The translations under genes were made by a program, and so were the position numbers. Below, one piece after another: positions 4,233 to 39,071 of a DNA stretch of 64,000 nt. This DNA is from Adenophora triphylla var. japonica (lineage: Eukaryota; Streptophyta; Magnoliopsida; Asterales; Campanulaceae), in contig JAFEMH010001359.1 in the NCBI GenBank assembly GCA_022495995.1, positions 1-64,000 of the forward strand. Reading direction: 5' to 3'. The first letter of the stretch is position 1; each line of letters opens with the position of its first letter. Under the pieces are notes generated by a model that made no database searches, was not told the DNA's origin, and saw nothing but the letters and a program-made list of their open reading frames with translations.

Positions 4233-5662
4233 ATGGTTAGGAAGGAAGAGTTAGTATTGGCTTTGGAAAATGCCCATAAGGTTCATGAAGAGCAGCTGTC
4301 ACTGCTCATCGGTGCTCTCCGACGCCATGGAGTTCAGGTAACAATTGAGGCAAATGGTTCTCTGGTCATTGTCGAAGATGAGATTTCAGAAACAGTGATT
4401 TCAGTCCCTTCATCCTATAACCAATACCCTCCATCCTACAGTCAATACCTTCCTCCATCCACATACGATCCCTTGCCAAGGACCACTACTCTTCAGTCCT
4501 TTCCAACATCCCAAGCCATCAGGGCTCCATCGCCCTCAGCTCCTCAGAACGGATCGGGTTTCATCACACCCGTTCCTCAGTTTCAGTAGTACCTACCAGT
4601 TTATACTCCAGTTTCACATAATCAGTTTGAGCTATGTGGCTATGTTCTGAAGCCCCTATACCCACCTGAATGCAATCATGAGTTGCTAAAAGAAAATTCG
4701 GATGCCTCAAGTTTTGTTTGTCACCTACCGAACTTAGTGAATTCACCCAGTCGGTTTCGCGATCTGCATTTGTGGTTCCTTCTACTGATAAGAGCTTTGT
4801 TGCGAGTTCCAGTAACTCGAATGTTCCCGTTGACCCCCATGTGGCAATATTGATGGAGCAAGTGAAACAGATGCAAGAAAAGCTTGATCTCATGATGAGC
4901 GCCAGTACTCCCCCGACCCAAGATGTCGAACCAGGCAAGGAAATGATTCCACCAAACATAACCCAATGCCACCAGTACCAAGCAGCAACTGCACCCAGCT
5001 CAGCACCCGTTCCTCACAAATGAAAGAGCGTCGTAGCCTCCTTCAGCCAAATCCCACAATGGAACCAATTGGACAATGGAAATCCAAGTCTTGAGAACAA
5101 CAATGTCTCCCAAAAACTCTGCTCCCTTCATTATGACAACGTGGAGATGCCTTTAAGCAAGATGCTGGAAGAGCTAATGAAAGAAAAGCTGATAAAGCCA
5201 CTGAAGAATTGGAAGCCCAAGAACCCCAACGTTCGGTTGGATGAGTCTAAGCATTGTCTTTTCCACCAATACCCCGGGCACGACACTGATGATTGTTGCT
5301 ATTTGAGGTATGAGATCCAGAAATTGATAGAAGATGGGAAGCTCGAGAACCTCCATGGGCCAAAAACAGAAAGCTATGGTAAGAGGTCGATTCAGGAAGT
5401 GCAAGGTCAGAAACGTCGTGTTGATGATTTCGGGATGCCCATGAGCAAAGTTTTTGACGAGTTGATGAGACAAGGCATTCTCACACCTCTCGAGAATTAT
5501 AAGTCGAGAAACCCACGTAACCTTGACAGGACCAAGTTCTGTGAATATCACAATCATCATGGTCACACAATATACAAGTGCCATAATCTGAAGAAAGAAA
5601 TCCAAGGGTTGATCTACGAAGGAGAGCTCAAGTTCCCTGGCAGTCCTGCTAGCGAAGAGTAG
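4233..5662 (+). pseudogene. gag: Element D: gag-like polyprotein with two CHHC zinc knuckles, broken
   Basis: An ATG at 4233 opens 118 codons that start with a helical segment and become Pro/Ser/Tyr-rich, ending at a stop near 4587. After a frameshift, a second frame runs from about 4718 to 5662 and is broken by one TGA at 5021-5023. Its first half has a short coiled-coil-like helix (ILMEQVKQMQEKLDLMM). Its second half (from 5069) has two tandem modules, each with a MPLSKxLEEL-like helix, a proline-rich linker and a CHHC knuckle spaced C-x2-H-x4-H-x4-C (C63, H66, H71, C76 and C158, H161, H166, C171 counted from 5069). Such knuckles are typical of Tat-lineage gag, where they bind nucleic acid in the particle. 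The conserved gag capsid core (Retrotrans_gag) is missing. The frameshift and stop argue against a working full-length product. Confidence 0.75.
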
Positions 5663-8380: not shown

Positions 8381-10214
8381 TGTAAGTGCTCCAATTTGAG
8401 TTGTTAGTATTTTCGTTAGAAAATTAACGAAAGCCCTAACATTTCTAACATTTCTAACAAATCCTAACTTCTCTAACAAAGCAAGAGTAAAGTAGGGATT
8501 GCTATTTAAAGATAAACCAAGAAATGAATCTCAAAAAGCAAAAGAATTGTAAAAAACCCGAATTGGCAAGCTGAAAAACAGCAACAAGATTGAATTTTTG
8601 AATAATATTCTTCCTGTCCAAAGCCTGGAGCAGCATTTAATGCACCAGGGCACGCGTCAATCAGGTCCGCGTGGATCCAAATGAAGTCCACAGTGGCCTA
8701 TAAATTGAACCCTCCTCTCTCAATTTACACAACACAATTCACTCACAGCAACAGCACTCTGGCGAAAAATAGAGAGAAAACAGTGGAAATCCTTAGATTG
8801 CCACCATTTTCTCTTGAATCTTTCCCAAATCCCACTCACTCCAAATACTCTCAAATCAATCCCATTCATACACAAGCCCAAGCTTCAATCACCCCTTAAG
8901 AGGAGGATTAGAGAGAAAACATAGAGGACTTAATTGTTATCTACTTGTTTTCTCTTTGACCAACTCTAATCACAAGCCCTAAACACATTCAAACCCTAAA
9001 CACATTCAAACCATGCCTTGAATCCATTCAAACACAAACACAAGGGAAGATAGGTATAACCTCCCTCTCCCTACCCTAAATCTCTCTCATCCATGCATGC
9101 ACTTTCAAACTCCAAAATGTAGTTTGTTCATCTTCTTGCTCTAGATCCAAGAGGATCACCATGGAAGTTCATCTCCATGGATGATCCTCTACAAGGATCA
9201 ACATTACTTTCAAAGTGTATTTACTTACTTGCAAACACATTTTCAAAACCCTAAAAATCATTTTCATACACAAAATCTTTCTTTCAAAGGATAAAATTCC
9301 CCTTCCCAAGCAAATGAAATGCTTAAAGTCCTAATGTACCCCAAGGATGGCTTGATATAGTAGATCACCACTAAAATTTTTAGTGATCACTAATCAAAGC
9401 CTAGGGAAATGGGGACAAGCATGGATGCCAAACCCCCTTTAAAATCATGTTTTTCTTCAAGAGGAAGTTGATGTCCAGTAGCCTTTCTCTAAGACCTCTG
9501 TCCATGGTCTAATTTTTTGGACATATAGAAACTTGGAAATTGGTGTTAACTACAAAATACTTTTTTTAGCCAACATCCAGATATTTCCAGAAATATTTTT
9601 ACTTTATTTTTTTCGTGAGTAAAACTCCCTTTTTCAAATTTTCTTTTAAAAGTCAGTTCCTCAGTCTCTGGAAATCCAGATTTCATATCTGAGATTTCTA
9701 GAGGGTTTTGGTCCACCAAATCATCTCTAAATGGGAAAGTTCTTTTACAGAAACCTTATTTAAGGTGTTTTGAACAACTTTCATTCTCGGACTTTCCCAA
9801 TATTTTGAATTTTTAAAGCCCTTAAACCCATTTTAAAATCAAGTGTCCACTGCCTTTTTCATTCTAGCAGAATTGGTTTTCAACTTCAAAAGGTCTTTTG
9901 AGTACCAAAACTCAACCCTAAAATCACACCAAAAACCATGGGACTTGTTCAAAGTCTTATAAAGAGTCCTCAATTTTTACTTTTCAGTTTGAACTTATTT
10001 TGGCCAAAAAACACACACACACACACACAAATGGTTTTTAATGCTTGGAAGACTCGTTTTACGAGGCACTTCGGGTGAACACTAACGTTCTTCCCGGAGC
10101 GTAACGTGACCTCCGAACCCAAATCTCTAATCTCGGGCATTTTTCAAAGTTTTGGCCCTCAAAATAAAAATGGCGTGGCGACTCCGTTTGATTTCAAAAA
10201 TCGGGTACATCACA
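8381..10214 (+). mobile_element. Element C: 5' LTR
   Basis: This 1,834-bp LTR starts TGTAAGTGCTCC and ends ACATCACA. A TATA box (CTATAAATT, about 8698-8706) precedes a CA-rich likely transcript start. Near the 3' end is the U5 block shared with A, D and the solo LTR: GTAACGTGACC, CCGAACCCA, then GGCGTGGCGACTCCG. TGGCGACTCCG at 10176-10186 matches the first 11 bases of the true PBS at 10216. An AC microsatellite (about 10010-10028) is shorter than in the other LTR. The two LTRs differ by a few percent by eye, so C is older than A. Confidence 0.92.
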
Positions 10215-11512: not shown

Positions 11513-13260
11513 TTGGATCAAGACCCCGGGTCATCATTTGCTCAGCTCAGTCATTCCGGAGTCAGATACTTCATCGGTTTCCTCCTTCGCTTCGGCTCAA
11601 AGTTTCAGAATGGCCAACTCGGAGGAGAAGCTGTGGGGACGTACAACTCGCACCCCGAAAATCCGCAAAATGCCGAGCAGTGGAATCAGATGTTGGAACA
11701 GATAAGACAACATCAAGAGGCTCAGATCAGTCAGTTATTGGAAGGTATCAAAAACCAGGGGCTAGCAATTATTCGCAGCCCTAATGGAACCTTTACGGTT
11801 GATGCGAAGATTGGAACTAATTACCCTCCCGGGCATGCCAATTACCGTCAAATGCCCTATTCCCTTTCGTGTGGAACTACTAATGGGCCAAGCATCCCCC
11901 AGCCTATCACTCAGCCTGCCTCTTGGCCTCATTGTATCAATACTCCTCGACAGTCCGATATTGGTCAACTTCCCCCCGGCGCCTCTCAGTTTTCACCTTT
12001 GGGTTTCAATCAGTCTGTTTCGCCGCGGCTTGGAATGGGTCGATTCGCTACTCCAAAACCTCGGTCGGCCCGAGCCATCGATGCAGGAATTGGTCGAGTT
12101 CGGTACATTTCGGCCCTACGGCTCGATACTCCTCAACAGGCCGATCTAGGTCAACTTTGCCCCAGGTGCCTCTCGAGGTCTCACCACCGGGATTGAATCG
12201 GTTGGCTTTCGCCCCACGGCTTGGAAGGGGTCGGTTTACTACTTGAACATCGATGCAGTTCGGGTCATCATCTCGGAATGGGTCGGTTCACGACTTCTCA
12301 AGCCCGGCAGTTTGACATGGCTCCGCAAGCCATTTTGGGACGATTCGCTTCTCGAGGCTCCATGGTTCGAGAGGGGCCGGCTTGCTTCCTCCAATTCTCG
12401 AAGCACACTTGCCCCTATGATACTGCAAGATCACAAGGGCCACCAGGCTCTTATCACCACTTCATCAGGTTTACTGTATTCACAACATCCTCCAAGCTCT
12501 ACCTCGCCCCTCCGGTTGGGAAGTCCGACAAGGTCAAATGCTCCTCATCAAATTCTCCACCCGGCATTACGCAAGTTGCTCCGCTCATCAAGTACGGTAT
12601 GCACATTACCCTTATAGTCACGTTCCTCGGTGTTGTCAAGACACGTTCGGTCCCTCTTGTTACGATGCCTCAAATCTCATATCTTGACGGCCTTTTGGAT
12701 CCGCACTCATTTGCTCCACAGTATCCAACCATTACGAGCCATACATCCTCATCTTCGGCAACTGCCAGGCCTTATGAGGAGGGTTACGGTCATGCTTTTA
12801 ATGCCCAGACTGTCATTCCTCCCACCAGAGTACTTCCTATTGTGGTTTCGTTTGCTAATGCCGATCTTGTGGCGGGGTCATGCAGTCCTAGTGTTCCTAT
12901 TGACTCGTCCAATGGATTATTGGTAGAACCAATTAAGAAAATACAAGAAAAGCCTAGCAACGAAAGTATCGACGATCGCTCGACTCGGGCCATCTCACCA
13001 TACCAATCTTGTGTATCTGACATGAATGAGTCTTACCAAAAGTCAAATCTCGACGCTTACATCGATGGTTACATCAAAAGGGTTCGTGCACGGGGAAGCA
13101 CTACAGGTCGGAACATGTCCCATCGCTATAAACCTTACCCTTCCAATACGGCTGCAACATCCATCAAGGAAAGAAGGCATTGCGTACAAATGACGGCATC
13201 CAAAAGCAACCAAGAAATGGTGGTCCTCAAAGGCAATGAGAACATTTTGATGATTTTGGG
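11513..13260 (+). pseudogene. gag: Element C gag-like block 1, N-terminal Gln/Pro-rich part
   Basis: An open frame from 11513 has no ATG at its start; the first in-frame ATG is at 11693 (MLEQIRQHQEAQISQLLE). It carries a Gln-rich helix, then GTFTVDAKIG and NYRQMP motifs, then low-complexity Pro/Ser/Gln-rich sequence to a stop at 12194. Coding continues in other frames (12221-13276), with HFDDFGMP-type residues just before 13261, so at least one frameshift is present. The NGTFTVD-NYRQMP segment is paralogous to PDGTFTVE-DYRRMP in block 2 (around 16055-16135). No capsid core is recognisable. The block is best read as the degenerate N-terminal half of the gag that ends at 13968. Confidence 0.6.
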
Positions 13261-13968
13261 ATGCCCATGGGCTTAATTTTCAAGGGTTTAGTAAAGGAAG
13301 GCCTTTTGGAGCCTCTCAGGGACTACCATCCAAGGAGCTCAAATACACCCCTAGACATGAGTAAGCACTGCGCCTTCCATAATCATTATGGCCACACGAC
13401 CGACGACTGCACAGTCTTGAAGAGAGCGGTTCAAGGGTTAATCGAAGCGGGCAAGCTTGAGCGCCCCAATGGACCAAAACCGGCAAACCCTGTTCAGAAT
13501 GGTGACCAAGTCAATGACCAAATCTTGAATCAAAGAGCATTAAGAGTTTATTCTCCCCCAAAGGAGAAACCACATCCCGAGGATTTGGGTGTTCCCTTAA
13601 GCAAAGTTTTAAAAAGCTTGATAAAGCAGGGTCTCCTCGAACCCATGAGAAACTATCAGCCCAAGGATCCCAAAATCCCTTTGGACACCACTAAGCATTG
13701 TGCTTTCCACCAGTATCACGGTCATATAACCGACAACTGTACATCTTTGAGAAAGGCAATTCAGGGGTTAATTAAGAAGGGCAAACTCGAGCGCCTCAGT
13801 GATCTCAACCCTGCCAATGATCATTTCCCAAACAACACGAGTGTAAACATGATTGAGTTTTATGATTCAAGCTCCAAGCAAGATGATTTAGTCGAAACAA
13901 ATGTGGAGAATGGTTGGTTTGACTGCAACAAGCATGTGACCATGGCCGGATTTGATGAAGTGCTTTGA
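13261..13968 (+). CDS. gag: Element C gag-like block 1: double CHHC zinc-knuckle module
   Basis: An open frame of 235 codons, itself continuous upstream (FDDFG precedes the ATG). Two tandem modules each have a GxPxxxxxKxLxKxGLLEP helix, a linker, and a CHHC knuckle: C37, H40, H45, C50 and C147, H150, H155, C160. After each knuckle comes a conserved helix, AVQGLIEAGKLER or AIQGLIKKGKLER. The spacing equals that of a retroviral CCHC knuckle with the second Cys replaced by His, as is usual in Tat-lineage gag. The last 50 residues are acidic and specific to this element. Expected role: RNA binding in the virus-like particle. It lacks protease and polymerase domains downstream. Confidence 0.72.
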   Translation: MPMGLIFKGLVKEGLLEPLRDYHPRSSNTPLDMSKHCAFHNHYGHTTDDCTVLKRAVQGLIEAGKLERPNGPKPANPVQNGDQVNDQILNQRALRVYSPPKEKPHPEDLGVPLSKVLKSLIKQGLLEPMRNYQPKDPKIPLDTTKHCAFHQYHGHITDNCTSLRKAIQGLIKKGKLERLSDLNPANDHFPNNTSVNMIEFYDSSSKQDDLVETNVENGWFDCNKHVTMAGFDEVL

Positions 13969-18083: not shown

Positions 18084-18088
18084 CTTTC
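18084..18088 (+). repeat. Target site duplication of element A (left), CTTTC
   Basis: CTTTC precedes the TGTTAGTACC LTR start and recurs at 29867-29871 after the second LTR. Joining the flanks at one copy resumes the gag-like sequence of C. Confidence 0.93.
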
Positions 18089-19648
18089 TGTTAGTACCCG
18101 GTCCGAAAAAAGGGACTGAAGTGCAATTCGGGAAATTCAGGGACTAAACTGGCATTTGGAAGCTTTTGGACCAAGTTGGAATTTATTGGAAATTCATGGA
18201 CTAAACTGGAAAATATGGAAATTTGGGACGAAATTGATATATAAAAATTCCTGGGTCAAAATGAAAGATAAAATCCCAAAGAGCGAAGTGCAAAAGAAGT
18301 CATTAAAGTGGTCAAAGTGGGCTTGGCAATAGCGGAGACGAAACGAATAATATTTATACCAAAATGAGGCCATTTTGCACAAGGTTGGCCGGCCAAGTTC
18401 ATTAAGCACGGCTGAAGGAGGGTCGGCCAGAGGAAGCAATTTGGGGCCAGTTCTAGGCATTTGGGCCAAGGTTGGGCTCAAGAATCAATGTTGGGCCGAT
18501 CGACCAAATCACTGTAGGGCCATTGCAATGTTGGGCCGATCGACCAAATCCAAGTAGTGCTTTTGCAATGTTGGGCCGATCGAACCTTATTTTAAGTGCC
18601 GATCGGACCTTATTTTTAAGGCCGATCGACCCTTTCTTTTTGTGCCGATCGAACCTTATTTTTAAGGCCGATCGACCCTTTCTTTGGCCCAGCCCATTCC
18701 CCAAAGCACTATAAATACGTGTGCTCAGTACCCACTCAAGACACGGTTTTCTTCCCCCACTTTCAACACACGTTCACACACAGGACAGAATTTCGACAGT
18801 TTTCTTCCCCACTTTCGACACACGTTCACACACACAATTTCCACACAATTTCGACACAGTTTTTTTTACACATCATCACACACAATTTATTCCGGTGAAA
18901 CGAGGACTACACTTGTTTCGTCCGTATTTCTCTCCATTCCCTTCGAATCGCCCTAGATTCGATCCCAAAGTCTTGCTACAATTGGTAAGGCTCTTATTAA
19001 TATTTTTGTTTCCTATTATTATTATCATTATTGCCATATTATAATAATACTTGCATGCTTATTATATTTTAATTGTGCCTTTATGCTAGATTTAGGACCT
19101 TTTTAATATATTTAAATATGCATAGCCGAGGATGATCTAAGGTTTCGCCCAAGAAAACCCAATGGATCTAGGAACTATTTCTTACCTTCCACCTTAGTAA
19201 TAATTGTCCCATGATCAACAATCCCCCAAGGATGAACGTTGATTAGTGCACCTTCCGAGGGCCTAAATCAAAGGTTCTAGGGTGTGATCATCAATTAATT
19301 CTTTCTCTCCCCTCCTCCTTATGCATGATCCCGTTTCCTCGATCTATTCCTGTAAACACCGCACACGACCAACACCCCGCATGCTAGAAAGACCGATTCG
19401 TCGGGCAATAGGAGTGATAGCGTTTCTTCTTCTGTTGTAACTTGACCCCCGAACCCAATTAACTGTTTAGCCTTTTTTCAAAGCTTTGGGCTATATCAAA
19501 GTGGCGTGGCGACTCTCAAAATTAAACTAATATTTTAATATGGTTTAAAGCGAGTGTCACTAAATGAATATCCCATTTCGGTACGACATTATATGATTAA
19601 TTATTTCAAACCTTCGAATGCGCGTTGCATCGGGACGGGGTATTCACA
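18089..19648 (+). mobile_element. Element A: 5' LTR
   Basis: This 1,560-bp LTR starts TGTTAGTACCCGG and ends GTATTCACA. U3 carries seven GCCGATCG boxes and a TATA box. U5 contains the conserved GTAACTTGACC, CCGAACCCA and GGCGTGGCGACTCT block; TGGCGACTCT at 19507-19516 duplicates the first ten bases of the PBS at 19650. Confidence 0.93.
18492..18717 (+). promoter_or_regulatory. Element A LTR promoter: seven GCCGATCG boxes and TATA box
   Basis: GCCGATCG starts at 18495, 18535, 18575, 18598, 18621, 18644 and 18667. The first three are 40 bp apart; the last five are exactly 23 bp apart. The core CGATCG is palindromic. A TATA box (CTATAAATA, 18709-18717) follows 35 bp after the last box, and the ACACACGTTCACAC-rich stretch after it is the likely start region. 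The arrangement suggests phased binding sites for a factor, which is inference. Confidence 0.7.
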
Positions 19649-19649
19649 G

Positions 19650-19667
19650 TGGCGACTCTGCTGGGGA
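19650..19667 (+). promoter_or_regulatory. Element A: primer binding site (tRNA-Arg type)
   Basis: TGGCGACTCTGCTGGGGA begins one base after the LTR end. It differs from the PBS of C at one position (T for C). Confidence 0.88.
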
Positions 19668-20803
19668 CTGTTTTGAAACTTTTTCAAACTAAGTGGGTCA
19701 GACTTTCATTTTCTTGTATGGTGTTGTATTTTACTTTCTTTTTCTTTTCCTTCTATTCTTAACTGTTGCATTGCATGCATGCATCTCCTAAAATAAAAAA
19801 AAAAACTTTCAATTTTCTCCTTAAAAAAAAAAAAAATTAGACTTTTTACCTCACACTACCACTAGAGTCCGTGTCACACTGCACAGACACCCTTAACCCT
19901 TCGGAGAAGCCAAAGTGCGGGAAGTGTGGTGATCATGTCGCCTCCTTTCCGAGTCTCACTTGGCCATCCACTCATCAGTGCGCTTCGGCTGCACGGTGGG
20001 AGCCTGAAACCTAACCCTTGTGTCACCCACTTTGCTAGGAGTACACTCCCCGTGACCGGTTGGTTTGACTAGCTTTTTCATGTAGACAATTAATAAGGTC
20101 TTTGTGTTAAGACACTACGAATCAATGATAAGTCAAATCTATAAAGAAAATAAAGGCACTAAAAAAAAATTGATTTTCCTTTTAAAGGACGTACCATGTA
20201 AAGTTTGAATGCTTGATCTTGTCCTATCATGGGTCTGTAGTACTTTCCATAAATATCATATTAAATGTCTATATGAGACGGTTAGTCGTTAGGATCCACC
20301 ACTTTAGGACATTTAGTTAGTTGCGAAAAAGGGGTATCCCTTCCAACCAAGAGTAGGTTCTATAAAAAGTTTTTTGTAAATAAAATGCTTAACTATCCTT
20401 CAATCTAGGACCCTTCAAAGTTCTACCTCTCATCTCTTGAACCTTCCATAGTCTGCTTCCTTAGCCTTAAAACCATCCATAGTTTAGATCCTTTATCTCT
20501 AGCACCCTTGACCAAAGACCAACCAAGGCCAATCCTCACCCAAGCCCAAATTAACTCACCTAGATCACCCTCATTTGACCAAGGATCGAGTCATCTTCCT
20601 CTTTTACATTCATCCCCCTCGAACTACGGTGACCTGAGACTCGTACCTTAAATGGTAAGGGTTACGTAGGCAACTTCAGCCCGGTCAAACTCAAAATTGT
20701 GGAGATCAACTATTTTTTTCTCAAAGATGCCTTAAGATAAATTATAAGTCTAATTCAACTCATTGGTTTGACTCTGCCATATGTTCTTACAGAATTCTAC
20801 ATC
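19668..20803 (+). other. Element A: untranslated leader
   Basis: The leader contains homopolymer A tracts, the GTGTCACACTGCACAG block (19870), a CCGGTTGGTTTGAC motif and a GTTGCGAAAAAGGGGTATCC motif, all aligned with the leaders of C and D. A stem-loop copy lies at 20621-20674. I see no gene before 20804. Confidence 0.6.
20621..20674 (+). other. TACGTAGG stem-loop element, copy 3
   Basis: Starts GAACTACGGTGACCTGAG, ends TTACGTAGGCAAC. Outer arms CTACG/CGTAG; inner arms CCTTA/TAAGG around aatgg. It lies about 130 bases upstream of the gag-like ATG. Confidence 0.65.
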
Positions 20804-21376
20804 ATGTCTCTGGAGAAAAACATTGAAGCCCTCAAAGAAGTCTCAAACATGAGGATGGGAGTGATCAACCTCCTCAAAGACATGCATGAAATTGAGCAAC
20901 ACCATTTGTCTTGCATTCAAGAATACTTGAGAAGAGTTCCTCCTCCTGTTCAATTCCAGAGTCCCTGCCATCCACATGCTTGTGATCCCACTTATGGTTC
21001 AACGCATCAGAATTTCTCATTCAAAATGCCTGCTGTGGCCACCAACCGACGAAGGGCACCAATACCCAAGTCACCCCCAAATTCAATACCCGAGAAGAAG
21101 ATCAACAAGGAGCATTTTGATGACTTAGGAATGCTTGTGGGTGAGTTCTTTGACATTTTGGTGGGAAAGAGTTTGATCAAGCCACTTGAGAATTATGAAC
21201 CGATAAACCCAAGGGAAGACTTAGATACATCCAAGTTTTGCAGATACCACAAGTACGCTGGGCATACCACTGACAAATGTGTGCAACTGAAACGCTCAAT
21301 TCAAAGATTAATCAACCAAGGGAAGGCCCAAGGCCTCATTGATGAAGGAACCCTCACCCTTCGAGGGAAGATTTAG
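20804..21376 (+). CDS. gag: Element A: small gag-like protein with one CHHC zinc knuckle
   Basis: The frame is open without ATG from 20768; the first ATG is at 20804, giving 190 residues. An N-terminal helical, possibly coiled-coil part (residues 1-50, SLEKNIEALKEVSNM and NLLKDMHEIEQHH) is followed by a Pro-rich linker with RRRAPIPKSPP. The C-terminal module has EHFDDLGMLVGEFFDIL, a linker, and the knuckle C146-x2-H149-x4-H154-x4-C159, then an RSIQRLINQGKAQG helix. The frame is intact, unlike the gag remnants of C and D, in keeping with the youth of A. It lacks the capsid core, so it is a shortened gag derivative. A role in RNA binding or packaging is inferred from the knuckle. Confidence 0.75.
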   Translation: MSLEKNIEALKEVSNMRMGVINLLKDMHEIEQHHLSCIQEYLRRVPPPVQFQSPCHPHACDPTYGSTHQNFSFKMPAVATNRRRAPIPKSPPNSIPEKKINKEHFDDLGMLVGEFFDILVGKSLIKPLENYEPINPREDLDTSKFCRYHKYAGHTTDKCVQLKRSIQRLINQGKAQGLIDEGTLTLRGKI

Positions 21377-23447
21377 ATTCATTCAGTCTTGTAGGTTCTA
21401 GTGTGTTTTTTTCATGTCCATTTTTGGCATTGATATATAATGTCCACTTTAGATTAGTTACTTCAATAATAAAAAAGGTCTTTCTTTCTTTTCTCTCTAG
21501 ACTTGAGACATAATCTCGCATTACTTTCAAGAAGATTGTTTTATTTATAATTATCACTTGGTTGCTAATCTCACTGATAAAATTACCGGCTAATAAAGTA
21601 AACAATGAATGAACGCTTTGATTGGAGTAAACAACTCACCATCCCTTCTTCATATACACCATCCCTATACACCCTTCTCTCATACACTCTCTCCATACTC
21701 CCCCATATACTTTTCATACACTCCTTGTACATACCCTTTATACCTTCTCAAGCATACACTTCCCCAAATACACTCTCCCCCGCTTGACATCCTTTTCATA
21801 TGATCAAGATAAACAAAGACCGTTGTTGCTCATCATCAGAAAATAGCTGCTCACGCCACTGCAATTTAAAGAAGATGCAAGGAGTTGTTCTTATCCTTCA
21901 CAAGTGCTACATGAATATCAACTTGGGGCTCACCAGCCCCCAAATCTTGCGTCTCCTCTGATTTTCCATTTGATCGATAAGCTTTCATTGAATATGCTCA
22001 CATATCTTTCTCATGGTCTGAATATATTTTGCCTTACATTAATAAGTCGGTTAAATGAGTTTGCATTTATTTTAAAAATACTCTTTTGAGAATGCTATCC
22101 AGTAGCGATTGAAGCTTAAACCTCTCACCATAGGAAGCCATAACCTTATCCTCACTAAATAAATACCCTTTCATTTCAAGATCGAAAAGTTTTGAAACCC
22201 TAAGGAAGAAGCCCATACTAGGGGCTCCCCTGACCTCCAAGCTCAAGAAAGGCGGAATGCAGAAGAAACTCAGACAAGGGGCTCCCTCGAAGGGACCACC
22301 TCCAAGCCCAAGAGGGAAAAGGTAAAACCATCCTAAGGCATACGCTAGGGGCTATCGCGAGCAAACGAGTCCGAAGGCTTTCCTCGAGAAGAGGGTGTCA
22401 AAAAAAAAAAAAGAGACATCGAGTAAAAGTCCTATCGTGATCAAGTTACCTGCTGAAATCACAACGAACTCGCGAGAAGAAGCAACAAAGATTCCCTCTT
22501 GGACGAATCCCGCAAACCAATTCCAAATTCCATCCTCTCACTTTTAGAGGATTCCATCACCACCCTTGACCTTATCAAAAATCAAAGTTAACCTCACTCT
22601 TAGAGGTTCTGAAGAAGCAGCAACAAGAAAATCCCTTCACCTTAGAAATTCCAAACACATCCCTCAAGCCAACCTCTCAGCAAATGGCCCAGCCGACCTC
22701 TCACTTTAAGAGGTCATGTTAAGCATCACCTAATGGTCGATCGCAACCCAAAGCCCAGCTACAACCTCTACCGGATGGCATTCTCATTCTGAGTCACTTG
22801 TTATCCTATGTGAGCATATTGCATACTCTCGCCAAGTTTGGGAACTCGTCCTATTCTTGAAATTCGTTTATTCGACTCTTCAAACACTGTCTGCAAAAGT
22901 CTCACTGGGGCTTCGCATCCGTGCCTCTCAGCGGCACTCCGGTAAAAGCAAGGAGACGCGTGCCAGGGACTACTCCCCTCGGCTTGTGAGAACAAAGGAG
23001 CAACGAATCTTGAATTGAAAGACAGAAAAATAGAAGGGGCTATAATCAGTCAAATCCCAATTTTTCTTCCACTCCAGTCTTGTTTCTTCCACTCCAGTCT
23101 TTTTTCTATTTTTCATTCTTTCCCATAAAGAAGATCAATGCAGTGGCAGCCCGCACGAAAATTACCACCAAACAGCCCAGAGCAGCGAGCAACAACGGAA
23201 CATCCTACTCCTTCTAAAGTCAGGCCCAATTTCACAATCAATCGATTTTCTCTCTCTTATTCCAACTTCAAATCAAAGCAGTCATTATTTGTTTACTTAC
23301 ATAATTGGAATTTGACAAACCAATCAGTGAGGTCCATTCTCGAGCAACCAAAATATAATTCTGAATAAAACAATTCTTCAAATGTCTCGACAAGTCTTCT
23401 TTTTCTACATCATAGGAAAATAGAGCCAAACACTGTCTTTCTGTCAA

Positions 23448-23576
23448 GCAGGGGCTTCCATACACTTTTCCACACCTTGTGATGCTTATACTCTCCCAAA
23501 AGAGTCAAACCCAAAAAGCGAGAGTGTCATACACGAATTCGGGATCCATTCCCACCTTCGAAAAATGTGCCCCTGC
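23448..23576 (+). other. Long-range inverted pair GCAGGGGC/GCCCCTGC in element A
   Basis: Left arm 23448-23455, right arm 23569-23576, spacer 113 bases. The arms are fully conserved relative to C and D although the spacer has diverged and shortened. Confidence 0.55.
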
Positions 23577-23740
23577 ACATATACATCTCCGAGTCTTGTC
23601 CAACGACTGATTGACTATTGTTCGAAACGAGGGGTCGCCTCCATGGCCGCAAGATGACTCTGTCTGCAATAGGGATACATTAAATCTCTCCAAGCCGGGG
23701 CTTTTGTTAAGCTGTTCTCTCAGGCTTTCTTTACCAGACT

Positions 23741-23910
23741 CCCTTCAGGTTTGCTTTGCATCATCAACTGGGGCTTCGCCATTCCCTTCAGGTTTGCTTT
23801 GCATCATCAACTGGGGCTTCGCCATTCCCTTCAGGTTTGCTTTGCATCATCAACTGGGGCTTCGCCATTCCCTTCAAGTTTGCCTTGCATCATCAACTGG
23901 GGCTTCGCCA
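23741..23910 (+). repeat. 43-bp tandem repeat, 4 copies (element A)
   Basis: Units start at 23741, 23784, 23827 and 23870 and contain CCCTTCAGGTTTGCTTTGC and AACTGGGGCTTCGCCAT. The GGGGCTTCGCCA core also occurs singly in C and D post-gag regions, so the array grew from one shared copy. Confidence 0.9.
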
Positions 23911-24364
23911 TGGTCACCTCATCAAACATCGAGACTCCCTCAACGGAAACAGGATAACGATGCGGTTCTTCAGAAAAGGCCAGGGGCTCTAACAAGAATC
24001 GGAGCTCCAATGAAGTCATATCTAGCAAAAAGGGCATCCCTTGTCATCAAGATCAGCATGTGGCAAACTCTTTGAGTTAGTTAGAAATGTAATTAATCAT
24101 AAGGCCTCCTTATCAAAATAACATACTTTCAAAATGCCACCCTCTTTGGCACCTTGTTTACAAAATCACTCTTTGGTCTCCACAAATTTTCAAAACTCTT
24201 CAAGTCTACCAAAGACGCCTCTCTGTGACTCTCAAGATGACTCGGTCCTACCCCTTATCTCTGGACATCAAACTTATCCAACCCCATCTTCTATCATAAA
24301 ACAGCCTCGCCCTGCTTAAACCATAACCTTTTTGCTCAAATTGCCTTGTTCAGAAGTGCCACAA

Positions 24365-24515
24365 ATCTAAACCCTAGCCTCAAGCCTAGGTGACCAAAAA
24401 CCTCTCAAAACCCTAGCTTCAAGCCTAGGAGACAAGTACCTTTCTAAACCCTAGCCTCAAGCCTAGGTGACAAATGCCTCCCAAAACCCTAGCTTCGAGC
24501 CTAAACCCCTCTCTA
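24365..24515 (+). repeat. About 50-bp repeat with CCCTAGC-TCAAGCCTAGG, 3-4 copies
   Basis: Imperfect units containing AAACCCTAGC and CAAGCCTAGG recur at about 24368, 24411, 24456 and 24486. It resembles telomere-like text only superficially. Confidence 0.6.
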
Positions 24516-24689
24516 AACCATAGGGTAACTGCCTTATACGTACAAAATAGAAAAAAGAAACATTCAAATTAACTCATTAAGCTTGTACATAAAGCATTTG
24601 CATTACATCAGTGAGTCAGCATAAAAAAAAATAGAGTCTGCATGCTTCTTTCCTACTTTTTCCCTACAGGTACTACAAAATAAAAAGTC

Positions 24690-27075
24690 CTAAAGACCCC
24701 GACGGGAGGTCGAAGCGCGACCGCGGGAAAATCTGGATGTCGAGCTACCCTCATCATGGGATCTCCGTCTCCGCTGCGCCGGATCCACGTCCACTGACCT
24801 CCGGGATTGGCAAGAAAGTGCCTGCACTGCACTCCTCAGCAGACGGCTCAGTACATTGGTCTGCCTCACAGCACGCACATAAGAATCCCGGGTAACCTGC
24901 AAAATCAAGCGCGAGAGTTACACCATGGCTAAAACATAATGATCGATGCATAAGAAGGAAAAGTAAGAGGTATACCCCGCCGGCACCGCCTGGAGGAAGC
25001 TGAGCACCCTCGACCTCGTCAGCCTCTGTGGGTGTCAAGTCTACCCTCACCTCCCCGTCGGCCATATGCACAAAGAAATGGTCGGGAAATGGAGGCATAT
25101 CTGCAATCTCGGGATGTCCAGCACCCATCGGCTCGGGGATAACCAAACCACGCCCTATACCGGCCGGCCTCGCGGCCTCGGCGATCCGCCTCACCACTGC
25201 GGTGATCTCGTAAAAGCTCCACAAAGTCCACATAGCCCATATCAAGCCGGCGATAAGCAGGGACCCCAAGTAGATACTCCGCCCTCCTCGCCAATCGGTT
25301 CGGATACCACATGTTCCTGGGAGGATGTTGGGGCGCATAAAGCGGAGCCCACGCATAGTGCTGTCTCGCCACCCGCTCACCCAAGTACATCTCATCAGCA
25401 AGCAGTCCAACCAACAATCTGCGGGAAGCAGTCACATCACGGACAGCACCAACCGTCTCTAAGGCCTCGGAAGTCCAAGGGTAAAGCAAGAACTCGGGCC
25501 TACTGGGACCATCAAGAACAGCCCTCAGCTCAGACTCACGGACCGTCTTCGGGAACCCCTCAATCCGATTCTCCTTCCTCCAGTAGCGCAAGAAGGGCAC
25601 ATCCCGAGTCTGGTCCCGCAAAGTGAACGGCGCGACGCCGAAAATCTCATAGACCCATGCCTGCAAAAGACACGGAAAGCAGATATTGATAAAGACAGAA
25701 GGACAAGTAACAAATAAGAGGACAAATAAAAGTTGGCATACCTCCAGAACAAACTGAAAAGCGTCAAAAGAAGAGGTATTGGACCTCGAGACAGTATCAA
25801 GGGCCCGATACAGCTCGGCCAAGCCGGCCCCTCCCCAAGAGATATCTCGCACTAAGCTCAAATCAGTCAAGGCACCCAACAAAGAGAATCGGCATACTGG
25901 GCCCGAGTTGGGGAAGAGCGCCACTGAGAATCCATACCAAGGGAATCCCCTGACAAGTGCGTCAAGCCCGTACTGGCCAGGCCTGTACTGATCAATAGCA
26001 GCCCTAACCAGCCTGTACAACTTCCCCGCATCAACACCAAAATTCCTACTCGAGCCCAGGCTAGCACCAAACAACTGGACCTGACGAGCCGGATCAGCAT
26101 GAAGAGTATCATCAAAGGGCAGTGCTATGTCTGTGAACCTCAAGCCGGTAAGAACGGCGAAGTCTGTAGGAGTGATCGTGGCCTCTCCCCAACTCAAATG
26201 GAAGGTATGTGTCGTATCCCACCAAAACTCCCGACACGCCTTCACCACTGCAGTGCACTTCCTGGTCTGGCCCATCTGCAGGACCATGTCAAAAAAGGGG
26301 GCCAACCCCAAGCTCCGTACCCTCTCACGAGGACCACCCTCACCAGCCGGCAGAAGCGCCCACAACTCCCCGACCGCCTTAAGGGAGCTGCGTCCCTTCA
26401 TCTTCTTCCCCTGCAGGTAAACACAGCACAGGTATGTGTCATTACTCGCATTTAAAATAATAAACACTTTGTACATGCATGAATTATTCTGTTGTTAAAT
26501 AAAAAAAAAATTTGTACCTTCATCCCGACACGGGATCGAAGTCCCGTGGACCCGTGAAATTCCAAGCCCGGATAAAAGTCAGACTGGTTGTGCAACAGAA
26601 AATGCAGCCTCGAGGGACGATAATTGCGCGAAGCCCACCGCCTCCTAGCCTCAATGTCCCCGCCAGCATCACTCCTATCGCTCTCCCCGGCGTCAGGATC
26701 ACCTTCCTCTTCATCATCATCGCCGCCGTTACCACCGCCATTGCCGCCGTGACCGCCACCGCGCGCCATGATCGCTGCCGCCACCGCCGCCGTGATCGCC
26801 ACGTAATCGCCGCCGTGACCCCCGTGACTGCCGCCATGGCTGCCATCATCACCACCACCATAACCTCCATAACCACCATCAAAACCACCACCCTTATTAC
26901 CATAACCGCTCCCAAAACCACCAGAACCGTGGCTGCCCCCGGCACCATGGCCACTAGCACCAACTCCGCCGCCATAGCCAAAGAAAGCATCACCCATACC
27001 ACCGGTATATGAGTCCAAGGATTGATCATCCGGTCGATTGAGCAAAAACTCCAAGGCGGCAACATCAGGATCCAT
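24690..27075 (-). CDS. Antisense four-exon gene: plant mobile domain (PMD) protein with Gly-rich N-terminus, inside element A
   Basis: ATG at 27075. Exons 27075-26518, 26410-25742, 25660-24976 and 24896-24690 are separated by short GT-AG introns (107, 81 and 79 bp), all phase 0 and all with clear pyrimidine-rich 3' ends. Exon 1: Gly/His-rich repeats then an acidic DDDEEEGDPD stretch. Exon 2: PMD hallmarks WWDTTHTFHLSWGEATITPT and DFAVLTGL, later DISWGGAGLAELYRALD. Exon 3 continues AWVYEIFG and a WYPNRLARRAEYL region. Exon 4 is Arg/Ser-rich with RRRRS, a possible nuclear signal, and ends at a TAG. About 705 residues. Exon 3 has one excess base near 25210-25215, so the frame is broken once unless it is a sequence error. 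PMD proteins (MAIN/MAIL1 family) act in plant silencing and development, and PMDs also occur in transposable elements. Exons are much richer in G+C than the flanks. Confidence 0.8.
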
Positions 27076-27360
27076 GGCAATCCCTTGCAAACTTGACACA
27101 AAACAAAGGAGGAACTCGAAGGTTTTCAGGCGAAAAAGTTTCAGAGCTCGACGGAGAAGAAGAAGGCGTAAAAGGTAGAAGAAGACGTGCGGATTTAAAG
27201 GCCGATCGGCCGAAGATCTGGCCAATAAGAGGAAGGGCCGATCGGCCCTTTATTTTGTGTTTCTTCTGATCGAGCGAACGGTCAGGATTCCATCTCAGCG
27301 ACGCGGATCCACGTCAATCGTCCTTAGCCAATCAGGAGGAAGGGCCGATCGACCCTTCAT
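27076..27360 (-). promoter_or_regulatory. Promoter region of the antisense PMD gene
   Basis: On the minus strand a TTTAAAT TATA-like box (27199-27193) lies 118 bp before the ATG. Upstream are GCCGATCGGC (27201-27210), GGGCCGATCGGCCC (27235-27248) and GGGCCGATCGACCC (27342-27355), plus two CCAAT boxes seen as CCAAT on the plus strand (27222-27226, 27328-27332). The GCCGATCG boxes are the same as those in the LTR promoter of this element, suggesting joint control. Confidence 0.6.
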
Positions 27361-27474
27361 TTTCCATGCCTCGGTAAGCATCGCCTTGGTCCAAGTGTTT
27401 GACCAGGCTTTTAATAAAATCGTTTTTTCAAGAATATACTCTTTTTATTATTATCAGTCAAATTCCTATTTAGT

Positions 27475-27688
27475 TCGGGGTGACTCCCACGAGTCAAAAT
27501 TATTATTTTTCTAGGTGACTCCTACGTAGTCAAAATTATTCTTTTCGGTGACTCCCACGTAGTCATATTTCTATTTTCGGGGTGACTCCCACAGAGTCAA
27601 ATTTCTATTTTTTCGGGGTGACTCCCACAGAGTCAAATTTCTATTTTTTCGGGGTGACTCCCACAGAGTCAAATTTCTATTTTTTTGG
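27475..27688 (+). repeat. 34-36-bp tandem repeat, about 6 copies (element A 3' region)
   Basis: Units contain GGTGACTCCCACAGAGTCAA and TTTCTATTTTTTC; starts at 27547, 27581, 27617 and 27653. Each holds the small inverted repeat TGACTC/GAGTCA. Confidence 0.88.
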
Positions 27689-28020
27689 GGTGACGACCGC
27701 AGAGTCAGACGTTGGGTGACGACCGCAGAGTCAGACTTTGGGTGACGACCGCAGAGTCAGACATTGGGGTGACGACCGCAGAGTCAGACGTTGGGTGACG
27801 ACCGCAGAGTCAGACGTTGGGGTGACGACCGCGAGAGTCGAGACGTTGGGTGGACGACCGCAGAGTCGACGTTGGGTGACGACCCAGAAGTCAGACGTTG
27901 GGTGACGACCGCAGAGTCAGACGTTGGGGTGACGACCGCAGAGTCAGACGTTGGGTGACGACCGCAGAGTCAGACGTTGGGTGACGATCGCAGAGTCAGA
28001 CGTTGGGTGATTCCCACACA
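27689..28020 (+). repeat. 26-27-bp tandem repeat, about 12 copies (element A 3' region)
   Basis: The unit GGTGACGACCGCAGAGTCAG plus ACGTTG is derived from the preceding array (shared GGTGAC and AGAGTCA) but shorter, so one array seems to have evolved from the other. Confidence 0.88.
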
Positions 28021-28085
28021 ATCATATCTTCGGTTTGAGACGCCGCACGTCCGCCATTCTCGGGTACTAAACGCCCACTCTTTCT

Positions 28086-28129
28086 GAACTACGACTTGGC
28101 TTGATTCCTCTTGGGATACGTAGGTAGCC
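28086..28129 (+). other. TACGTAGG stem-loop element, copy 4
   Basis: Starts GAACTACGACTTGGCTTGAT, ends ATACGTAGGTAGCCC. Outer arms CTACG/CGTAG, inner arms ATTCC/GGGAT around ctctt. Confidence 0.65.
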
Positions 28130-28250
28130 CGACGTGGGTTCAGCCGCTCGACCTACTTGGTCATCTTCCATTTGTGACTCAGCTCGAGTCCAAACCTCAC
28201 ATCCGCAAAATCATTGTCTTACCTCCTGAAATCCCTTTTTCAGGACGGAT

Positions 28251-28305
28251 CCTATTTTTATCGTCGACCCCACTTGTCTTACAAGAAGCGTCGCCGAGGG
28301 GCTAC
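28251..28305 (+). promoter_or_regulatory. Element A: polypurine tract with upstream hairpin
   Basis: The PPT GCCGAGGGGCTAC lies directly before the 3' LTR start TGTTAG. Upstream, GACCCC can pair with the GGGGC of the PPT, and within that the perfect hairpin CTTGT-ctt-ACAAG. The same layout with different inner arms is seen before the PPTs of C and D. Confidence 0.7.
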
Positions 28306-29866
28306 TGTTAGTACCCGGTCCGAAAAAAGGGACTGAAGTGCAATTCGGGAAATTCAGGGACTAAACTGGCATTTGGAAGCTTTTGGACCAAGTTGGAATT
28401 TATTGGAAATTCAGGGACTAAACTGGAAAATATGGAAATTTGGGACGAAATTGATATATAAAAATTCCTGGGTCAAAATGAAAGATAAAATCCCAAAGAG
28501 CGAAGTGCAAAAGAAGTCATTAAAGTGGTCAAAGTGGGCTTGGCAATAGCGGAGACGAAACGAATAATATTTATACCAAAATGAGGCCATTTTGCACAAG
28601 GTTGGCCGGCCAAGTTCATTAAGCACGGCTGAAGGAGGGCCGGCCAGGAGGAAGCAATTTGGGGCCAGTTCTAGGCATTTGGGCCAAGGTTGGGCTCAAG
28701 AATCAATGTTGGGCCGATCGACCAAATCACTGTAGGGCCATTGCAATGTTGGGCCGATCGACCAAATCTAAGTAGTGCTTTTGCAATGTTGGGCCGATCG
28801 AACCTTATTTTAAGTGTCGATCGGACCTTATTTTTAAGGCCGATCGACCCTTTCTTTTTGTGCCGATCGAACCTTATTTTTAAGGCCGATCGACCCTTTC
28901 TTTGGCCCAGCCCATTCCCCAAAGCACTATAAATACGTGTGCTCAGTACCCACTCAAGACACGGTTTTCTTCCCCCACTTTCAACACACGTTCACACACA
29001 GGACAGAATTTCGACAGTTTTCTTCCCCACTTTCGACACACGTTCACACACACAATTTCCACACAATTTCGACACAGTTTTTTTTACACATCATCACACA
29101 CAATTTATTCCGGTGAAACGAGGACTACACTTGTTTCGTCCGTATTTCTCTCCATTCCCTTCGTATCGCCCTAGATTCGATCCCAAAGTCTTGCTACAAT
29201 TGGTAAGGCTCTTATTAATATTTTTGTTTCCTATTATTATTATCATTATTGCCATATTATAATAATACTTGCATGCTTATTATATTTTAATTGTGCCTTT
29301 ATGCTAGATTTAGGACCTTTTTAATATATTTAAATATGCATAGCCGAGGATGATCTAAGGTTTCGCCCAAGAAAACCCAATGGATCTAGGAACTATTTCT
29401 TACCTTCCACCTTAGTAATAATTGTCCCATGATCAACAATCCCCCAAGGATGAACGTTGATTAGTGCACCTTCCGAGGGCCTAAATCAAAGGTTCTAGGG
29501 TGTGATCATCAATTAATTCTTTCTCTCCCCTCCTCCTTATGCATGATCCCGTTTCCTCGATCTATTCCTGTAAACACCGCACACGACCAACACCCCGCAT
29601 GCTAGAAAGACCGATTCGTCGGGCAATAGGAGTGATAGCGTTTCTTCTTCTGTTGTAACTTGACCCCCGAACCCAATTAACTGTTTAGCCTTTTTTCAAA
29701 GCTTTGGGCTATATCAAAGTGGCGTGGCGACTCTCAAAATTAAACTAATATTTTAATATGGTTTAAAGCGAGTGTCACTAAATGAATATCCCATTTCGGT
29801 ACGACATTATATGATTAATTATTTCAAACCTCCGAATGCGCGTTGCATCGGGACGGGGTATTCACA
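28306..29866 (+). mobile_element. Element A: 3' LTR
   Basis: This 1,561-bp copy of 18089-19648 differs at about six substitutions and a one-base indel (in CCAGGAGGAAGC). The seven GCCGATCG boxes are kept except one changed to GTCGATCG near 28816. The PBS look-alike is at 29725-29734. Confidence 0.93.
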
Positions 29867-29871
29867 CTTTC
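29867..29871 (+). repeat. Target site duplication of element A (right), CTTTC
   Basis: Matches 18084-18088. Confidence 0.93.
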
Positions 29872-37219: not shown

Positions 37220-38845
37220 TGTAAGTGCTCCAATTTGAGTTGTTAGTATTTTCGTTAGAAAATTAACGAAAGCCCTAACATTTCTAACACTTCTAACAAA
37301 TCCTAACTTCTCTAACAAAGCAAGAGTAAAGTAGGGATTGCCATTGAAAGATAAACCAAGAAAATAATCTCAAAAAGCAAAAGAATTGTAAAAAACCCGA
37401 ATTGGCAAGCTGAAAAACAGCAACCAGTTTGAATTTTTGAATAATATTCTTCATGTCCAAAGCCTGGAGCAGCATTTAATGCACCAGGGCATGCGTCAAT
37501 CAGGTCCGCGCGGATCCAAATGAAGTCCACAGTGGCCTATAAATTGAACCCTCCTCTTTTAGTTTACACAACACAATTCACTCACAGCAACAGCACTCTG
37601 GCGAAAAATAGAGAGAAAACAGTGGGAATCCTTAGATTGCCACCATTTTCTCTTGAATCTTTCCCAAATCCCACTCACTCCAAATACTCTCAAATCACTC
37701 CCATTCATACACAAGCCCAAGCTTCAATCACCCCTTAAGAGGAGGATTAGAGAGAAAACATAGAGGACTTAATTGTTATCTACTTGTTTTCTCTTTGACC
37801 AACTCTAATCACAAGCCCTAAACACATTCAAACCCTAAACACATTCAAACCAAGCCTTGAATCCATTCAAACACAAACACAAGAGAAGATAGGTATAACC
37901 TCCCTCTCCCTACCCTAAATCTCTCTCATCCATGCATGCACTTTCAAACTTCAAAATGTAGTTTGTTCATCTTCTTGCTCTAGATCCAAGAGGATCACCA
38001 TGGAAGTTCATCTCCATGGATGATCCTCTACAAGGATCAACATTACTTTCAAAGTGTATTTACTTACTTGCAAACACATTTTCAAAACCCTAAAAATCAT
38101 TTTCATACACAAAATCTTTCTTTCAAAGGATAAAATTCTCCTTCCCAAGCAAATGAAATGCTTAAAGTCCTAATATACCCCAAGGATGGCTTGATATAGT
38201 AGATCAGCACTAAAATGTTTAGTGATCACTAATCAAAGCCTAGGGAAATGGGGACAAGCATGGATCCCAAACCCCCTTTAAAATCACGTTTTTCTTCAAG
38301 AGGAAGTTGCTGTCCAGTAGCCTTTCTCTAAGACCTCTGTCCATGGTCTAATTTTTTGGACATACAGAAACTTGGAATTTGGTATTTACTACAAAAATAA
38401 TTTTTGTAGCTAACATCCAGAGATTTCCATACATATTTTTAATTTATTTTTTTCGTGAGTAAAACTCCCTTTTTCAAATTTTCTTTTAAAAGTCAGTTCC
38501 TCAGTCTCTGGAAATCCAGATTTCATATCTGAGATTTCCAGAAGGTTTTGGTCCACCAAATCATCTCCAAATGGGAAAGTTCTTTTACAGAAACCTTATT
38601 TAAGGTGTTTTGAACAACTTTAATTCTCGGACTTTCCCCAGATTTTGAAGTTTTAAAGCCCTTAAACCCATTTTAAAATCAAGTGTCCACTGCCTTTTTC
38701 ATTCTGGCAGAATTGGTTTTCAACTTCAAAAGGTCTTTTGAGTACCAAAACTCAACCCTAAAATCACACCAAAAATCATGGGACTTGTTCAAAGTCTTAC
38801 AAAGAGTCCTCAATTTTTACTTTTCAGTTTGAACTTATTTTGGCC

Positions 38846-38885
<40 letters not shown>

Positions 38886-39071
38886 AATGGTTTTTTAATG
38901 CTTGGAAGACTCGATTTACGAGGCACTTCGGGTGAACACTAACGTTCTTCCCGGAGCGTAACGTGACCTCCGAACCCAAATCTCTAATCTCGGGCATTTT
39001 TCAAAGTTTTGGCCCTCAAAATAAGAATGGCGTGGCGACTCCGTTTGATTTCAAAAATCGGGTACATCACA
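37220..39071 (+). mobile_element. Element C: 3' LTR
   Basis: This 1,852-bp copy of 8381-10214 carries a longer AC microsatellite (about 38849-38877) and scattered substitutions. TATA and U5 blocks are conserved; the PBS look-alike is at 39033-39043. It ends ACATCACA followed by the ATAAC duplication (39072-39076). Confidence 0.92.

Follow-up and report, generated by a model that had tools for sequence, protein, structure and literature searches.

Among the extra domains that a screen of plant long terminal repeat (LTR) elements turned up, the plant mobile domain (PMD) was the most frequent (PMC9289625), and in a 2019 survey it occurred in the extra open reading frames (ORFs) of 57% of Ogre elements (PMC6317226). 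Two clades of the family, PMD-A1 and PMD-A2, have been described as exclusively Gypsy-encoded, the captures by Mutator-like elements (MULEs) falling in PMD-C (PMC5418596). MAIN and MAIL1, which are PMD proteins of the host, act in transposon silencing (PMC5418596, PMC7156037); a counter-silencing role has been proposed for PMD proteins encoded by transposable elements (PMC8616336), and there has been speculation about an anti-silencing one for those borne by MULEs (PMC5418596). Antisense accessory genes have been described as well, that of Grande with its own promoter (PMC7264820), and VANC is known together with its motif arrays, its binding and demethylation having been shown (PMC5735166). 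In the surveyed passages of this literature element-borne PMD ORFs, common as they are in Ogre, have no established function. Here we analyse such a gene in a stretch of 64,000 nucleotides from Adenophora triphylla var. japonica (contig JAFEMH010001359.1, positions 1 to 64,000; hereafter the window). The gene occupies positions 24693-27075 of the minus strand, antisense to the young LTR element (18089-29866) that carries it, and is probably a selected, spliced, trans-acting accessory gene that is co-regulated with its LTR.

The class of thing is already known. What is new here is a motif common to the LTR and the PMD promoter; this conserved motif and the evidence for selection at the level of copies merit the most attention. 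Among the matches listed in our literature searches (titles and starts of abstracts) there was no report of copy-level selection on Gypsy PMD genes or of a motif shared by an LTR and a PMD promoter, and the passages drawn from PMC13317346 and PMC11152179 hold nothing on Gypsy-borne PMD.

The antisense gene and its element

The gene has four exons and three GT-AG introns, all of them in phase 0. Along the minus strand, exon 1 (27075-26518, 558 nt), encoding a Gly-rich N terminus, is followed by intron 1 (26411-26517, 107 nt), exon 2 (26410-25742, 669 nt), intron 2 (25661-25741, 81 nt), exon 3 (25660-24976, 685 nt), intron 3 (24897-24975, 79 nt) and exon 4 (24896-24693), which encodes an Arg/Ser-rich tail and ends in the stop codon. 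The G+C content is 29-39% in the introns vs. 55-59% in exons 1-3. Upstream lie a TATA-like TTTAAAT (27199-27193, minus) and two inverted CCAAT boxes (ATTGG, at 27226-27222 and 27332-27328). The first-pass annotation, made from the letters alone, had proposed a four-exon PMD gene placed antisense in a young pol-less retrotransposon, with these intron types and protein ends, G+C-rich exons and a TTTAAAT/CCAAT promoter of its own, and our gene model agrees with it.

The frame that stays open through intron 2 matches the PMD profile (Pfam PF10536) with an E-value of 8.4e-23 and 81.5 bits, vs. a curated cut-off of 34.9, and no other Pfam family exceeds its cut-off in the gene. Taken by exon, exon 2 covers positions 12-175 of the profile (E 1.4e-15) and exon 3 positions 182-285 (E 0.0085, by itself below the cut-off), so that intron 2 sits between two separate parts of the match. 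The longest open frame within 24976-26410 (minus) has 463 codons, and none of 300 Markov shuffles exceeded 308. The length of exon 3 is of the form 3n+1 and the reading frame is therefore broken in the window copy; the frameshift that had been suspected is real. Single-sequence AlphaFold2 gave a pLDDT of 34.6. Searches with the PMD ORF returned nothing at E <= 0.001 among 7995 protein candidates scored, no confirmed relative in viral and genome contig collections and no match up to E 1 among the sequences of the PDB; these negatives carry little weight since the collections are presumably plant-poor, and no named plant PMD sequence was found in any of the four.

The second intron is informative about the history of the gene. 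Ten more distant PMD genes (L009-L018) were fetched from the same genome, and all of them align with exon 2 in tblastn at 23-29% identity. For nine of them the alignment extends to the final codon of exon 2, and in 9/9 GTAT comes immediately after it, i.e., the position and phase of intron 2 are common to nine divergent genes. An intron at an identical codon boundary in divergent genes points to an old PMD intron and to a gene that does not derive from a processed or spliced mRNA. The first-pass contention that the gene was not copied as its own spliced mRNA is borne out by this and by the retention of the introns in the aligned copies (see below). Read from the plus strand, in the genomic RNA of the element, the introns would appear as CT..AC, and by the established rules for splice sites they are not expected to be removed, which fits the further suggestion that antisense placement preserves them there. 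Elsewhere in the genome, contigs C739, C2537 and C3696 hold clusters of several PMD-domain open frames, stop-free over 464-840 codons, within tens of kilobases.

The carrier is a complete LTR element with a 5-bp target-site duplication (TSD), CTTTC, on both sides (18084-18088 and 29867-29871). Its two LTRs (18089-19648 and 28306-29866, plus strand, TG..CA) are 99.55% identical, differing by 6 substitutions and 1 indel. At 1.3e-8 substitutions per site per year, 6 differences over ca. 1560 sites place the insertion near 0.15 million years ago. A putative primer binding site (PBS) TGGCGACTCTGCTGGGGA, which we take to be of the tRNA-Arg type expected in the Tat/Ogre lineage, lies at 19650-19667 (plus), and a putative polypurine tract (PPT) GTCGCCGAGGGGCTAC at 28290-28305 (plus). 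The older element that encloses this one has nearly the same PBS in the same place, and the identical 16 bases precede its 3' LTR; a literature search with the first nine bases of TGGCGACTCTGCTGGGGA gave no match. The features that define an LTR retrotransposon (TG..CA LTR pair, TSD, PBS-like and PPT-like sequences in position) are thus all present, and of the gag-pol coding capacity of an autonomous element the window copy has a gag remnant only. This is an ORF at 20741-21373 (plus) with a C-terminal gag zinc-knuckle module that has no Pfam match and shows 40-46% identity to four gag modules elsewhere in the window (5087-5632 and 13183-13803). These others stand two in tandem per site, in neighbouring related elements. 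The sense strand of the interior, translated in three frames with X at stops, gave no Pfam domain at E <= 0.1; the antisense frames treated alike gave PMD at 3.1e-21, which served as a positive control. The element is pol-less, not gag-less. Two traits of Tat/Ogre elements are present, the PMD extra ORF and tandem repeats in the 3' region, the latter at 27456-28010 between the PMD promoter and the 3' LTR, in units of 36 and 26 bp. An inverted repeat, TGACTC..GAGTCA, lies within the 36-bp unit. A DUF765 match in or near the tandem repeats was taken as a low-complexity artefact.

Two relatives place the loss of pol in context. In the copy on contig C1451 (L023, L052) the interior is 92.5% identical to that of the window element over 5119 columns, up to position 23911, and no pol domain was found in its three sense frames, a scan that covered all but the 358 bases between the two loci. 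A second copy with such an interior suggests repeated transposition of the pol-less type. The copy on contig C727 (L022, L051, L053) carries reverse transcriptase (RT; E 5.8e-27), RNase H (6.8e-23) and integrase (3.6e-9), with a weak RVT_3 match (E 0.0055, below the cut-off and in another frame) between RNase H and integrase, the place where an additional RNase H (aRH) is expected in the Tat/Ogre lineage, and has the antisense PMD gene downstream. Ogre and Retand have the same order of domains, RT, RNase H, RVT_3 and integrase (PMC6317226). The R-U5 part of the C727 3' LTR is 94.6% identical to that of the window over 776 columns, and the LTR start and the bases preceding it are the same. Of the 30 copies that we aligned, 25 have half or more of the flank 24245-24545 of the window type and four have none of it. 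Judging from these sequences, the absence of pol is the derived state of a non-autonomous type; the lack of pol noted in the first-pass annotation holds for the window element and does not extend to the whole group. The two types, one without pol but still with the gene and one with pol, amount to a natural experiment on cis vs. trans action of the protein.

Copies in the host genome and selection on the gene

The host genome searched amounts to 2.48 Gb in 8432 contigs. It contains at least 149 scored PMD profile matches (115 of 36,013 first-look candidates were scored). Searching its DNA with exon 2 yielded 3148 first-look candidates. The best 40 of them, window copy included, were scored, and every one of these has a nearly full-length exon 2 at 93-100% identity. 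Thirty copies, the window copy and those nearest to it by exon 2, were read and aligned. For each intron the GT-AG ends are kept in 29 of them. Exon 1 comes in 21 distinct lengths and yet is a multiple of three in 24/30, as compared with 10/30 for intron 1.

The ratio of non-synonymous to synonymous divergence (dN/dS) of exon 2 is 0.111 (253 pairs among the 23 copies with a gap-free exon of 669 nt; codon bootstrap over 40 random pairs, 0.066-0.152). Because methylated elements lose C at CpG, the estimate was also made from transversions only, and it came to 0.137. The remaining exons gave 0.19 (exon 3, 11 copies), 0.19 (exon 4, 21 copies) and 0.31 (exon 1, 22 copies). Sites of exon 2 (161 synonymous and 508 non-synonymous in all) also differ by how variation is shared: where a variant is common to at least two copies, 49 sites are synonymous and 19 non-synonymous, vs. 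31 and 41 among singletons. This split suggests a gene constrained in the active lineages and relaxed after insertion. With the introns as the reference, the dN of exon 2 (0.019) would come to some 0.16-0.31 of their divergence, again well below 1.

On this evidence the PMD gene is under purifying selection, a conserved accessory gene and not debris, which means that its protein is of some use to the element carrying it. The first-pass annotation had named three outcomes that would speak against its idea, namely absence of the gene from other copies, no PMD match in a profile search and a dN/dS near 1. What we found was the gene in all scored copies, a match above the curated cut-off and ratios between 0.11 and 0.31 depending on the exon.

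A palindromic motif in the LTR and the gene promoter

The U3 region of the 5' LTR has an array of seven CGATCG-centred sites of the GGCCGATCGACC type (18494-18677, plus), the last five at 23-bp steps, upstream of the LTR TATA box TATAAATA (18710-18717, plus), and the 3' LTR has the array as well. Three copies (window, C1451 and C727) agree in their LTRs in the 23-bp steps of the last five sites and in a distance of 39 bp from the start of the last site to that of CACTATAAATA downstream; the spacing of the array has been kept, although what precedes it has diverged. Three palindromic sites of the GGCCGATCGGCC type stand in the PMD promoter (27200-27211, 27236-27247 and 27343-27354, minus). The 8-base core GCCGATCG or its complement makes 18 strand-hits in the window, seven in the 5' LTR, six in the 3' LTR and five at the three promoter sites, with none in the rest of the window; the Markov expectation is a mean of 0.5 and a maximum of 3 (20 sequences), and, given a tandem array and duplicate LTRs, the LTR counts are not independent of each other. 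No core occurs in 150,903 bases of twenty other loci (some of which overlap). With up to two mismatches GGCCGATCGRCC, which includes the commonest U3 8-mer, has 32 matches vs. 3.6 expected, 31 of them within the LTRs and the promoter. Among the literature matches listed (titles) for the motif string GCCGATCGGC there was no retrotransposon paper.

The motif is also maintained among copies. At least one exact core is found in the PMD promoter of 27/30 copies. In these copies the major allele has a mean frequency of 0.954 across the three 12-base cores vs. 0.862 across the remainder of the 345 bases; when triples of 12-base windows were drawn at random, 149 of 20,000 matched that level. The CpGs of the motif are kept at 0.97 on average in the same copies, compared with 0.77 for the 18 other CpGs of the promoter. 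A shared and conserved motif is what shared control of both promoters would look like, and its presence in the promoter of the gene and in that of the element suggests that the gene may help to control the element. Two of the 30 copies, L036 and L022 (the latter pol-bearing), have a further GCCGATCG array just past the end of the PMD gene on its 3' side (L051:6535-6630).

Putting these lines together, the window element would be a non-autonomous member of a Tat/Ogre-type Ty3/gypsy family. Its PMD gene would be transcribed by the host polymerase from its own promoter, the three introns would be removed in the nucleus, and the protein would act in trans for the element family, pol-bearing relatives supplying replication. 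Through the GGCCGATCGGCC-type palindromes that the PMD promoter has in common with the LTR, where they precede the TATA box, gene and element could be switched together. The likeliest job of the protein, which presumably acts in the nucleus, would be to act on the transcription or silencing of these promoters. The first-pass annotation had supposed that the gene could influence the silencing or transcription of its own element, and the shared motif gives this supposition a concrete form, with a defined site at which transcriptional or anti-silencing control could be examined. A more specific version, in which the PMD protein (or a complex containing it) recognises the GGCCGATCGGCC-type palindrome and keeps the CpG-bearing LTR and its own promoter active or unsilenced, is something that we put forward only tentatively and consider rather unlikely as it stands.

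Several observations weigh against the proposal of a selected accessory gene co-regulated with its LTR. All four exons are open by alignment in just 2/30 copies, the window copy being itself broken, so that most present copies cannot make the PMD protein. The dN/dS set consists of the copies nearest by exon 2, from which 7/30 were dropped for an exon 2 that deviates from 669 nt. Synonymous divergence (0.17) exceeds the divergence of the introns (p 0.062, 0.080 and 0.122), and hence CpG decay may inflate dS. Intron 2 is not universal, since L001-L005, which are among the best profile matches, have one open frame through the domain. The pol of the C727 copy has four stops between the RT start and the integrase end in the frame scanned. 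As to the motif, the six-base CGATCG without the full core occurs at six other places of the window, 7/18 promoter CpGs outside the motif are kept at 0.96-1.0, and the sharing of 8-mers between U3 and the PMD promoter is in itself unexceptional (34 of 1173 control windows reach 19), the specific motif alone standing out. Finally, a host factor might bind the motif instead of the PMD protein.

This last point leads to the strongest alternative, which we regard as a serious possibility, if a somewhat less than even one. The motif would be the site of a host transcription factor, either recruited twice or copied from the LTR to the gene promoter, and the selected PMD protein would do something else, such as assisting the nuclear import or chromatin targeting of the element. 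It is compatible with everything observed in support of an accessory gene and differs in the job of the protein; indeed, not all of the alternatives considered here exclude the reading that we prefer. Plant LTRs often collect sites for host factors, the motif lies near the TATA boxes of both promoters, and some LTR and gene-promoter sites are alike over about 20-28 bp around the core, so that copying between the two may have occurred. Grande, moreover, has nuclear accessory proteins without known targets (PMC7264820). On the other side, the motif is missing from the enclosing element, which is related, has a PBS of the same type and the same PPT and lacks PMD, and zero occurrences in the other loci searched would be odd for a common host site.

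Alternatives, surroundings and known systems

Another origin of the gene can be envisaged, in which a DNA transposon with a PMD gene inserted into the ancestral element and the gene was kept for a transposase-related job. The same genome does have PMD genes within long inverted repeats. In L013 (2668-6936, on contig C15) the gene lies between 353-bp inverted repeats that are 99% alike, flanked by a 10-bp direct repeat CCGATTCTCC, and the unit looks like a MULE-type transposon; L011 and L016 have weaker inverted-repeat arms, and all three share intron 2 with the window gene. Even so, no inverted repeats of at least 60 nt (20-base seed) were found in 14000-40000, and the MULE copies have been argued to be captures of host genes (PMC5418596). 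We consider this origin unlikely.

It could also be that the antisense transcript matters and not the protein, by pairing with the genomic RNA and feeding a small interfering RNA (siRNA) control of copy number. This has been proposed for antisense ORFs (PMC7264820), and in the tea plant 175 phased-siRNA loci lie at PMD genes (PMC10673657). A role of the RNA needs no constraint at the protein level, whereas dN/dS is 0.11-0.31 and the indels of exon 1 are mostly multiples of three; as a replacement for a protein function it is quite improbable, though the two roles may coexist. A decaying passenger, picked up when a defective element recently captured a host PMD gene by accident, would suit the broken frame of the window copy, the missing pol, the 28/30 copies that are broken somewhere and the known capacity of LTR elements to capture genes (PMC7264820), but with the gene in 40/40 scored matches of a multi-copy family that includes a pol-bearing relative, the introns kept and a dN/dS of 0.11, a recent capture of the Bs1 type (few copies, no conservation) is contradicted and this explanation can hardly be right.

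The accessory-gene element is nested in an older LTR element at 8381-39071 (plus), which would measure ca. 18.9 kb without the insert and has LTRs at 8381-10214 and 37220-39071, 96.4% identical, with the TSD ATAAC. Neither PMD nor GCCGATCG is found in it, and four Pfam scans of its internal halves on both strands gave no RT or integrase and a weak gag match (E 0.02). Its 3' half contains several long tandem arrays with units of 30, 32 and 72 bp. Pfam matches to Ribosomal_S5_C, Cas9_b_hairpin and Vault in or near tandem repeats were set aside as low-complexity artefacts. Farther along the window there are a match to an Rfam group II intron at 48687-48799 (minus, E 3.7e-07), perhaps an organelle-derived insertion, and an ORF at 53765-54868 (plus) with a sub-threshold match to the MuDR DNA-binding domain (E 0.00086).

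Of the known systems, the PMD-bearing Ogre and Gypsy elements are the nearest, since they too have an extra PF10536 ORF in an LTR element of the Tat/Ogre type (PMC6317226, PMC5418596, PMC9289625). The window element differs in being pol-less and yet keeping the gene, and the four-exon structure, the selection among copies and the shared motif are absent from the passages compared. Grande (gene23), RIRE2 and Retand resemble it in their antisense gene between the pol region and the 3' LTR (PMC7264820, PMC11963269), Grande also in that its accessory gene has its own promoter, and Retand in its adjoining tandem repeats and non-autonomous members. They encode other proteins, however (TRP28 in Retand), and no motif common to LTR and gene promoter is mentioned in the passages cited.

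The VANC anti-silencing system of the VANDAL transposons offers a likeness of another kind, an element protein and a short motif in dense, often tandem non-coding arrays that is rare in other elements (PMC5735166). VANDALs are class II DNA transposons with another protein family and another motif, and the window holds an LTR element, which in anatomy fits the VANC type, with near-private motif arrays in non-coding regions. With the silencing module of Arabidopsis, MAIN, MAIL1 and PP7L, the window gene shares the protein domain family (PMC5418596, PMC7156037). The first-pass description of a homologue of the silencing pathway stands at this level, that of the family; the host genes MAIN and MAIL1 belong to clade PMD-C. 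If the PMD protein did recognise the palindrome and keep its promoters unsilenced, the system would be an LTR-retrotransposon counterpart of VANC, and would hint at a common ancestry of the host silencing proteins MAIN and MAIL1 and the anti-silencing factor of an element.

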